Part shown: positions 3,076 to 25,524 of the stretch, one piece after another | How positions within the stretch are numbered: position 1 is the stretch's first letter | Layout of the letters: every line of letters begins with the position of its first letter | Origin: a virus | Direction: 5' to 3' (one strand) | Length of the DNA: 30,476 nucleotides | Virus record (IMG/VR): IMGVR_UViG_3300046804_004895 | Coordinates: 1 to 30,476 of that record | The notes under the pieces: generated by a model | Database searches by the model: none | What the model was told of the DNA's origin: nothing | The model's input: only the letters and a program-made list of their open reading frames with translations | Made by a program: the position numbers and the translations under genes

Positions 3076-3083
3076 CATAAATA
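3076..3083 (+). promoter_or_regulatory. Late-promoter-like octamer CATAAATA
   Basis: One mismatch to TATAAATA, on the plus strand, 83 nt before the ATG at 3167. It would give a leader of about 78 nt, unusually long for this window. Together with the octamer at 3056-3063 it forms a compact divergent promoter pair. Confidence 0.6.
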
Positions 3084-3166
3084 AAATTAACGTAATTCTG
3101 CGTTTTATGCGGATACCACCGCGTAGTGGCTAGAACCCACATCGGACTTCTATAAGGAGAAAACAA

Positions 3167-3991
3167 ATGGGACGTCCTCTCAAAATTCAAAAATATGGCC
3201 CTGCACAGGGTATCACCAACGGTGCCAACGGCGCACTAAACCAACCAGCCGCAGCAGTAACAGTCGATGCAGGCTATCCAAACTGGGGTAGTCTCACTGA
3301 TCCTGTTTATCCTACCACTGCTTTCAACACTGATCAATTCTTGGGTGTTGTCGGTGGCGATTACACACTCAGCCAACCAAGCACAACATATCCTGTTGTT
3401 AAATGCCAAGTTAACATTCAACTTCCAAGCGGTGCTGGCGCCGGCGTGCATGATGGCCGCATCATCCGTCAGAAAGGTTCACACAAGTATTTGGTAGCCG
3501 ATGGTACCACTCTTAACGACGAAGAAATGGTTGTTGGCGCAAGTTACCAGATTCTTAGCTTAGACACTACCAATTGGCAACAGATGGGTGCACCAGCAGG
3601 TGCTATTTCAGGAACAATCTTTACCTGCACCGCACTTTGTGCTAACCCACAAAACGGTACTGGTTTGCTTGTTGGCCAATGTGTTTTGACCAGCGACCTG
3701 ACCCCCGGACCGGGACTAATGGCCATCAGCTATACCACAGGTGACTCAACCGCAGTTGCTATTTCTAAGTTGACCAACAAGTTCTTGTTGAACTGGGATA
3801 ACTTCCAGAATGCCGACGGCACAAGCTTAGACAGTTATGCCAGCGGTGGCAACAACACTGGTGAAGTTATTTACAGTGGCGAAGGCGAACTAGCCGCCAA
3901 CTTCTTCACAGACGAAGGCACTGTTACAAAGTCTGGGTCAGAGCTCAACGCTTCACTCGACTTGGCTATCGTGGAAAACTTCACTTCTTAA
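3167..3991 (+). CDS. Putative virion structural protein (conserved, function unknown)
   Basis: 274 aa beginning MGRPLKIQKYG, an N-terminus I associate with a conserved but unassigned protein found near capsid genes in marine T4-like phages. The composition is Gly/Ala/Thr/Asn-rich with predicted beta structure, no transmembrane segment and no catalytic motif that I can see. The basic N-terminus is followed by a Gly/Asn-rich stretch. A good AAGGAG Shine-Dalgarno (3154-3159) sits upstream of ATG 3167. It has its own late-type promoter and is closed by a strong terminator hairpin at 4012-4044, so it is probably a monocistronic late transcript, consistent with a virion component made in quantity. 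A head decoration role is possible from the position after gene 23, but this is inference. Confidence 0.75.
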   Translation: MGRPLKIQKYGPAQGITNGANGALNQPAAAVTVDAGYPNWGSLTDPVYPTTAFNTDQFLGVVGGDYTLSQPSTTYPVVKCQVNIQLPSGAGAGVHDGRIIRQKGSHKYLVADGTTLNDEEMVVGASYQILSLDTTNWQQMGAPAGAISGTIFTCTALCANPQNGTGLLVGQCVLTSDLTPGPGLMAISYTTGDSTAVAISKLTNKFLLNWDNFQNADGTSLDSYASGGNNTGEVIYSGEGELAANFFTDEGTVTKSGSELNASLDLAIVENFTS

Positions 3992-4011
3992 TTGTAGTTT
4001 TACGTCAGCCC

Positions 4012-4044
4012 AAAACCTCCCAGCTATATACTGGGAGGTTTTTT
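4012..4044 (+). terminator. Intrinsic terminator whose 3' arm contains the next gene's Shine-Dalgarno
   Basis: Perfect 12-bp stem (4012-4023 with 4031-4042), 7-nt loop (4024-4030), then a T run ending at 4044. The ATG of the next gene is at 4045. The 3' arm contains GGAGG at 4034-4038, six nucleotides before that ATG. The same hairpin can therefore end the upstream transcript and hide the ribosome-binding site in any read-through RNA. Confidence 0.85.
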
Positions 4045-4632
4045 ATGAGCATAGCATTTATATTAGGTAACGGAATTAGTCGTCAAGGATTACCTCTGCA
4101 TGATATACAAAAGCATGGCTCAATATACGGCTGTAATGGTTTACATCGAGATTTTATACCGGATGTCTTGGTGGCCACTGACACCCCGATTGCATTATAC
4201 ATTGAATCAATTGGATATCCCCTTGAGCATAAGTTTTACACACGTCGCCCTATGTTGGGGAAAGGTGGATTATCTATTCCTAGACCTTACTTTGGCTACA
4301 GTTCAGGGCCGGTAGCAGTGGCATTGGCAGCACTGGAGCAACACAAAAAAATATACATGTTGGGATTTGACATGGGCCCAACTGAAAATAAAAAATTCAA
4401 TAATGTGTATGCAGGAACTGAATTCTACAAAGAGCCTGGCTCAAATCCCACGTACACTGGTAATTGGATCAAGCAAATACAACAAATTTGTCGTGAATTC
4501 TCGGGAACCAAGTTTGTCAGAGTGTGTGGGAAAACCACAGCAAGGCTGCCAGAACTTGATGGCATTAAAAATATGGAACACCTTGCACTGGATCGCTTTG
4601 TAGAGCGGATAAATAATGTGAAGGATCTTTAA
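4045..4632 (+). CDS. Rossmann-like, sialyltransferase/DUF115-type putative enzyme
   Basis: 195 aa. The N-terminus has a nucleotide-sugar-type loop 'FILGNGISRQG' (residues 5-15), then 'IYGCNGLHRDFIPDVLVATD' near residues 27-46. The second half has 'SGPVAVALAALEQHKKIYML' followed by 'GFDMG' (near 90-114). The order GNG-S / CN...PD...D / (K)xIYxxGxD resembles GT42 sialyltransferases and DUF115/MptE-like proteins; the resemblance is by motif pattern only. The C-terminal half resembles the protein at 14485-15147, so the two may be distant paralogues. The stop codon directly abuts the ATG of the fibre gene at 4633, implying co-translation with the fibre cluster. Glycosylation of fibres or of a host or virion sugar is an inference. 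The only Shine-Dalgarno lies in the terminator stem. Confidence 0.8.
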   Translation: MSIAFILGNGISRQGLPLHDIQKHGSIYGCNGLHRDFIPDVLVATDTPIALYIESIGYPLEHKFYTRRPMLGKGGLSIPRPYFGYSSGPVAVALAALEQHKKIYMLGFDMGPTENKKFNNVYAGTEFYKEPGSNPTYTGNWIKQIQQICREFSGTKFVRVCGKTTARLPELDGIKNMEHLALDRFVERINNVKDL

Positions 4633-5253
4633 ATGGCAACCGTAAAAACAACCAGTGGTGATTACACAATCAACTTAGGGCCGTATGATTCTGGCAATGC
4701 AAAATGGGCTGGAACAATGAATGTCAACGGCAATCTGAATGTTGCCGGGAACATTACTTATGTAGCAGATATTGCTGTAAATGATGCATTCATTGTTGTT
4801 GCCGCTAACAATACTGGCACAGTTCAAGACATGGGACTGGTTGCTACCAAAGGAACGGGCAGTTATGCTGGATTGAGATTTGATACAGTAGCTAACGTAT
4901 GGCAAGTTAGCAGCAGTGTTAACTTTGATGGATCACCAGTCGCTTCTTATGCTAATATTGCAACCGGTAATGCCACTGTGGCAGGATCCAATACACAAGT
5001 TCAATTCAATGATGGCGGAAGTTTTGGAGCCACTGCCAATTTAACTTTTAACAAAACTCTCAATGTGTTAACACTTCAAGGATCTCAAACACTTGGTAAC
5101 ATAGGAACGCCTCCTGCTTCGGTTGCCAATTCGGTGGTAATTTACAACAACGCCACTGGTCCTGGCGGCTCGGGTTTGTATGCAATCACCAGTGCCACCA
5201 ACGACGAATTAACTGCTTACAACAAAGCCAAATTGTTGAGCATTATACTTTAA
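4633..5253 (+). CDS. Tail-fibre-like structural protein
   Basis: 206 aa, rich in Asn/Gly/Ala/Thr/Val. The N-terminal half contains the segment 'MNVNGNLNVAGNITYVADIA' (about 29-48) followed by an 'AFIVVAANNTGTVQDMGLVA' block. The same kind of block occurs near the N-terminus of the 1606-aa fibre ('TTIEDPVILLASNQTGSPSV' then 'IGFIGQRG'), so the two share a fibre module. The middle 'NTQVQFNDGGSFGATANLTF' (about 120-139) is a frequent phage fibre motif. The C-terminus ends 'NDELTAYNKAKLLSIIL' with no chaperone domain. The start codon immediately follows the stop of the upstream gene. It probably contributes to the distal tail or fibre apparatus; its place in the virion is unknown. Confidence 0.75.
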   Translation: MATVKTTSGDYTINLGPYDSGNAKWAGTMNVNGNLNVAGNITYVADIAVNDAFIVVAANNTGTVQDMGLVATKGTGSYAGLRFDTVANVWQVSSSVNFDGSPVASYANIATGNATVAGSNTQVQFNDGGSFGATANLTFNKTLNVLTLQGSQTLGNIGTPPASVANSVVIYNNATGPGGSGLYAITSATNDELTAYNKAKLLSIIL

Positions 5254-11569: not shown

Positions 11570-11604
11570 AAAAAATAGAGCTCCAAGTGGGCTCTATTTT
11601 TTTT
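11570..11604 (+). terminator. Intrinsic terminator after the giant fibre gene
   Basis: 12-bp stem (11570-11581 with 11591-11602), 9-nt loop, T run to 11604. It lies 15 nt after the stop codon and directly abuts the next late promoter (11605). Confidence 0.9.
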
Positions 11605-25492: not shown

Positions 25493-25524
25493 AAAAATAG
25501 GGTCCTCGTAGACCCTATTTTTTT
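25493..25524 (+). terminator. Intrinsic terminator after the sheath gene
   Basis: Perfect 12-bp stem (25493-25504 with 25511-25522), 6-nt loop, T run to 25524. It separates sheath and tube transcripts. Confidence 0.92.

Follow-up and report, generated by a model that had tools for sequence, protein, structure and literature searches.

We propose, with moderate confidence, that a hairpin between two genes of a jumbo phage is a four-in-one boundary: a terminator for the upstream gene (3167), a silencer of read-through RNA, a weak late promoter held in the loop, and the Shine-Dalgarno sequence (SD) and spacer of the downstream gene (4045). The structure of the hairpin, its covariation, its placement, the motif in its loop and the spacing of that motif are observed, and from these we infer termination, initiation at 4036 and translation from a short leader.

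The hairpin at 4012-4042 and its relatives

The window, by which we mean the whole stretch of DNA analysed (30,476 nucleotides), comes from an IMG/VR virus record and represents about 30 kb of the genome of a jumbo phage of the T4 superfamily. In its major capsid protein it shares 68% identity with Pseudomonas phage PA5oct and 63% with Cronobacter phage GAP32, and uncultured contigs as long as 344 kb are very close relatives of the phage. A homologue of gp55 (phrog_12791, E 4e-76), adjoining a gp47-like gene, is encoded in nine of ten contigs. The features that concern us, all on the forward strand, are as follows.

3167-3991 (+): upstream gene, 274 aa, the conserved partner of the hairpin; the terminator would end its RNA
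4012-4023 (+): 5' arm of the hairpin, AAAACCTCCCAG (sequence, fold, covariation)
4024-4030 (+): loop, CTATATA, candidate late -10, one base off CTAAATA (motif in 67/67 leaders)
4031-4042 (+): 3' arm of the hairpin, CTGGGAGGTTTT (sequence, fold, covariation)
4033-4038 (+): GGGAGG, SD of the 4045 gene, paired within the stem of read-through RNA
4036 (+): predicted late transcription start, RNA 5'-AGGUUUUUUAUG, 6 nt past the last A of the -10 (T4/Aeh1 geometry)
4039-4044 (+): T6, terminator U-tract, doubling as the SD-to-AUG spacer (T6-7 kept in relatives)
4045-4632 (+): gene served by the hairpin, encoding a 195-aa Rossmann-like protein with weak likeness to GT42 sialyltransferases
4609-4615 (+): ATAAATA, late -10 of the fibre-like gene, predicted start 4621 (kept in relatives, 16-17 nt spacing)
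4633-5253 (+): fibre-like gene, with its own late promoter and not dependent on the hairpin

The first-pass annotation had described a 12-bp terminator with GGAGG in its 3' arm, 6 nt before ATG 4045, and a T tract abutting that ATG, and the sequence agrees exactly: GGAGG occupies 4034-4038, and only TT separates the 3' arm from the ATG. When RNA spanning 4010-4062 is folded, the hairpin is the sole structure (-18.7 kcal/mol, z = -4.4, with none of 200 shuffles as good). It has the build of an intrinsic terminator, a 12-bp stem with six GC pairs (core CCUCCCAG/CUGGGAGG) followed by U6. The upstream stop codon ends at 3991, so that the gap from stop to hairpin is 20 nt (14-28 nt in relatives), and a stop codon this close upstream may weaken intrinsic termination (PMC4824070). 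An exact-pattern search for the hairpin of the window itself returned no match.

By taking relatives of the upstream and downstream genes from viral contigs, we assembled 67 distinct leaders. In all 67, the stop codon is followed after a short gap by the hairpin with its SD-like 3' arm, then by U6-7 and the abutting ATG, although in one of them (L163) the stem is offset. The same plan is found in a further 46 distinct leaders recovered from more distant upstream genes, a set that partly overlaps the 67. An alignment of 26 hairpins shows pairing in 96.5% of its stem cells, and two-sided changes occur at 7 of the 12 pairs, in 35 cells compared with 9.1 +/- 2.5 in shuffles. Sliding the stem partner by one column reduces pairing from 96.5% to 54-64%. 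Covariation, together with this loss of pairing, indicates that the stem is selected as a stem. Both arms, whose conservation the first-pass annotation had proposed as a check, are therefore kept with covariation, and the 3' arm remains SD-like throughout (GGAGG, GGGGA, AAGGA). A relative in which the hairpin was retained with the ribosome-binding site (RBS) elsewhere would have counted against the earlier reading, and none was found among the recovered leaders. The proposal that read-through RNA would have its RBS locked in the stem is supported by the pairing of GGGAGG in the fold and by the covarying arms.

This arrangement is not a product of chance. Across seven contigs (about 1 Mb) carrying 78 terminators, an ATG-abutting terminator occurs only before the 4045-type gene, once per contig, and at none of the other 71; similarly, a TAxxTA loop is found only in the 4045-type hairpin (0/71 among the others). 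The window contains other A-tract/T-tract terminators at 1858-1889, 11570-11602 and 25493-25522. For the latter two, the late -10 of the next gene lies within about 35 nt downstream, which is the ordinary arrangement.

The product of the 3167 gene had no match in Pfam, PHROG or PDB searches and its predicted structure is poor (pLDDT 58). Relatives of the gene, down to 34% identity, are each followed by the hairpin and a 4045-type gene. A late -10, ATAAATA, lies ahead of it at 3077-3083 (predicted start 3089), and its leader at 3088-3169 (+) is a freshwater-2 RNA (RF02980, 74.7 bits against a cut-off of 49.9), and each of the nine relatives tested also has it ahead of the orthologous gene. Given this -10 and predicted start, the freshwater-2 motif of Rfam seems to form the 5' UTR of a late gene that is conserved in jumbo T4-type phages.

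The likeness of the 4045 protein to GT42 sialyltransferases is confined to its first 36 residues, in addition to a weak PHROG match (alpha-2,3-sialyltransferase, 4.8e-5). Profiles from the PDB matched CstI/CstII with E values of 0.04-0.13, and Foldseek gave vague Rossmann matches only. Because the gene is strictly linked to the 3167 gene, its product may act on the 3167 protein or on another structural one. In Pelagibacter phages, relatives of the 4045 protein (35% identity) occupy different gene contexts and have an overlapping start, where the hairpin is not expected.

The loop as a candidate late promoter

The late -10 of this phage group is TAAATA, with the consensus [CA]TAAATA. The hexamer accumulates 15-24 nt before ATG codons, with a peak at 17, and is kept rigidly before the orthologous tail-sheath, tail-tube and other late genes, where only the first flanking base is free. 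For comparison, the late -10 of T4 covers positions -13 to -6, and the CTAAATA of Aeromonas phage Aeh1 begins at -12 (PMC1524935). A second TAAATA peak, 4-7 nt before the ATG, is seen at 69 of about 990 genes in the seven contigs and is conserved between orthologues; examples in the window are genes 28264, 16948 (-) and 21685 (-). This second peak predicts leaderless late mRNAs.

It had been stated earlier that no late octamer lies between the hairpin and the ATG. That is true of the interval itself, but the loop is a candidate late -10 with one deviation, CTATATA. The loop motif, NTAxxTA, is one change from [CA]TAAATA in 67/67 leaders, whereas only 3% of shuffled centres come within one change. 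Nine forms occur (ATAAGTA, CTACATA, TTAAATA, CTATATA, ATACATA, CTAAGTA, ATAATTA, CTAACTA and CTAATTA), and the two centre bases are never changed together. Where the first base is T, the TAAATA core is perfect (12/12), and where it is A or C, the core carries one change (55/55). Furthermore, the motif stays 14-17 nt from the ATG although the stem-loop boundary moves (loops of 4-10 nt), as expected of a DNA element and not of an RNA element centred on the loop.

Applying the T4 start rule to the 67 leaders gives, in every case, a predicted RNA with a 5' end of GGGA, AGGA or AGGU, 9-12 nt before the AUG. RNA from the predicted start at 4036 folds with no structure over the SD, which on this short RNA would be only 4-6 nt long and at the extreme 5' end. 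In 25 of 52 ordinary late promoters of the group, the SD starts 6-7 nt past the -10, and leaders are about 12 nt long. With this shared spacing of -10, SD and ATG, the hairpin is spaced as a late promoter with its RBS would be. In T4, late promoters that deviate at a single position are functional in vitro and have been associated with 5' ends in vivo (PMC2988020), and thus a -10 that is one base off can work.

The full [CA]TAAATA is present in the loop of none of the 67 leaders, and a collection-wide scan for a perfect version with RGGATTTTTTATG found none before a 4045-type gene. At promoter distance before other genes, TACATA, TATATA, TAACTA and TAAGTA are not enriched; TAATTA alone is. The loop of lineage L031, GTACATA, is two changes off consensus, and the C that follows the loop motif (60/67) is more constant than in ordinary late promoters. 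The loop could be conserved for some reason other than a promoter. The constant distance from consensus, with the core perfect only behind an unfavourable first T, fits a promoter that is held weak, and on the sequence evidence a weak late promoter probably sits in the loop and makes RNA free of the hairpin. A sigma70 promoter within the hairpin (TATACT, 4027-4032) was considered and rejected, being lost in most relatives.

In the model that we favour, RNA from the 3167 gene would fold into the 12-bp hairpin and be terminated at the U-tract. In read-through RNA, GGGAGG would be paired in the stem, leaving the 4045 gene untranslated. As the motif, spacing and conservation suggest, the loop DNA would act as a suboptimal gp55-type late -10 from which polymerase starts at 4036, within the 3' arm. 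The resulting RNA would be unable to form the hairpin and its SD would be usable, with the U-tract doubling as the spacer between SD and AUG. The net effect would be to insulate the sialyltransferase-like gene from a strongly expressed neighbour while giving it low-level expression from its own weak late promoter.

The first-pass annotation had suggested that the 4045 gene, and with it the fibre gene, may need the stem to be opened by ribosomes or a factor. For the 4045 gene, the candidate -10 in the loop and the predicted start at 4036 argue otherwise, since RNA made in this way would lack the 5' arm. The fibre gene has no need of stem opening because it has its own conserved late promoter. 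Its ATG at 4633 abuts the stop codon ending at 4632, and its -10 falls within the 3' end of the 4045 gene, at a distance of 17 nt from the ATG, in the layout ATAAATA-atgtg-AAGGATCTTTAA-ATG; the predicted leader is the 12 nt AAGGATCTTTAA. ATAAATA also precedes the fibre-gene relatives in five contigs (G009, G008, G005, G002 and G003), and CTAAATA precedes a probable relative in G010.

If the model is right, the predictions of terminator, promoter and RBS all fall on the same ~35 bases, and annotating the downstream gene as dependent on read-through would be wrong. The hairpin would then also represent a minimal insulator, one that stops both transcription and translation from a neighbour while its own gene is still expressed, which could be useful for compact circuits.

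The same plan in other genes, and alternative readings

A blind search of viral contigs for GGGAGGTTTTTTATG and AGGAGGTTTTTTATG yielded 107 distinct ORFs of 60 aa or longer, and 11 of these have a terminator-SD hairpin. An embedded promoter, with its start in the loop or 3' arm, was present at 9/11 hairpin sites compared with 18/92 sites without a hairpin (Fisher p 7e-5, with some entries related). One of the nine belongs to the 4045-gene family. The genes of this plan include the following.

RuvC-like gene (L016, L059, L064, L078): hairpin containing a perfect TATAAATA, with the SD in its 3' arm and U6 ahead of the ATG
Haem oxygenase gene: GTAAATA, predicted 5' end AGGAGG
dUTPase gene (L079, L103): consensus sigma70 promoter TTGACA-17-TATAAT, whose -10 lies within the 5' arm of a terminator-like hairpin that sequesters the SD
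Two 75-aa ORFs: TTGACA-17-TACAAT and TTGACA-17-TATTTT
80-aa ORF: TTGAAA-18-GATAAT

Upstream of the RuvC-like gene lies a different, structural-looking protein. The leaders of the RuvC, haem oxygenase and dUTPase genes have no close DNA relatives in isolated phages. In bacterial genomes, 71 sites had an ORF of 60 aa or longer, and six of them an SD-terminator-ATG hairpin; none of the six has a sigma70 promoter inside the hairpin, and two (L550 and L596) are an FMN riboswitch followed by an SD-terminator hairpin.

These comparisons suggest that the plan may have arisen more than once. We are evenly divided on whether it is a general, repeatedly evolved phage device, in which an upstream terminator would hold the promoter (-10 in the 5' arm or loop) and SD (3' arm) of the downstream gene, so that only RNAs started inside it could be translated. 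Such a device would span at least five unrelated gene contexts and both late gp55-type and sigma70 classes of promoter, with the promoter of the 4045 family kept one step below consensus for low-level expression.

Control at the level of RNA, with no promoter, strikes us as rather unlikely. On this account, most upstream transcripts are terminated, the rest are poorly translated because the SD is paired, and the loop either binds a protein, which could be a phage repressor or the product of the gene itself, or is kept by loop-stability rules. T4 has translational repressors that bind loops, and a bound loop would suit both a motif that is conserved yet never reaches the full late consensus and the unusual constancy of the base after it. 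However, the register of the motif moves relative to the stem while the distance to the ATG stays, all nine loop 7-mers are one step from the promoter consensus, and unrelated genes of the same plan carry good promoters at that place. Less probable still is cleavage of read-through RNA within the loop by an endonuclease such as RNase E, which would free the SD and leave an RNA beginning UAC.... Every relative does have an AU-rich, single-stranded loop of 5-8 nt, but cleavage leaves unexplained both the match to a late -10 and the spacing shared with other late promoters, and a cut in the loop is inconsistent with the versions bearing sigma70 promoters.

We give equally little weight to an ordinary terminator whose G-rich 3' arm happens to act as an SD in tight gene packing, where breathing of the hairpin suffices and the loop is irrelevant. 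The genome is dense, and a G-rich arm followed by a U-tract naturally resembles an SD and spacer; nevertheless, none of the 71 other terminators in the seven contigs abuts an ATG or has a TAxxTA loop, and the loop motif and its spacing are fixed. A riboswitch-like expression platform, in which terminator and SD sequestration coincide, seems to us extremely improbable. The pattern matches in bacteria at L550 and L596 are of just this kind, but here only 20 nt (14-28 nt in relatives) separate stop codon and hairpin, and Rfam detects no aptamer between 3170 and 4045; the lack of space for an aptamer makes this reading unlikely. A leader-peptide or riboswitch match (Phe_leader, E 0.93) was discarded at 22 bits against a cut-off of 55. 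Classical translational coupling to the 3167 stop was also rejected: the stop lies 20 nt from the stem and 53 nt from the ATG, and, judging by the size of its footprint, a ribosome terminating there should not extend into the stem.

Comparison with known systems

No description of a combined terminator, promoter and SD element was found in the openly accessible literature that we searched. The closest known systems are the RBS-hairpin leaders of T4 gene e (lysozyme), soc, 49, I-TevI and segB and of Aeh1 mobE, in which a hairpin pairs the RBS in long transcripts and a late promoter at the 5' arm or loop gives translated RNAs without the 5' arm (PMC3014915, PMC2988022). As in the gene e/I-TevI type, the hairpin at 4012-4042 is stable and pairs the RBS in read-through RNA, as its folding energy (-18.7 kcal/mol) and covariation indicate; in contrast, its candidate late promoter is one base off consensus, with the right spacing, in 67/67 leaders. 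The candidate -10 is of the same type and spacing as the late promoters of Aeh1 and T4 (CTAAATA/TATAAATA, gp55), and a gp55 homologue is encoded. However, the loop is a constant one-off variant, whereas ordinary late genes of the window's group keep the core. Riboswitch expression platforms, such as those for FMN at L550 and L596, likewise place the SD in a terminator stem and a U-tract before the AUG, but their promoters are far upstream; the hairpin at 4012-4042 has its candidate promoter inside and no aptamer (Rfam, 3170-4045).

Finally, descriptions of hairpins of the T4 gene e type do not include an intrinsic terminator whose U-tract spaces the SD from the AUG, whereas the hairpin at 4012-4042 is terminator-like. 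Those hairpins silence early read-through of late genes; this one would separate two late neighbours. What is new relative to the T4 e, I-TevI and Aeh1 mobE leaders is the proposed terminator function and, if our reading is right, the logic of gene e has here been extended from the control of timing to the separation of genes.
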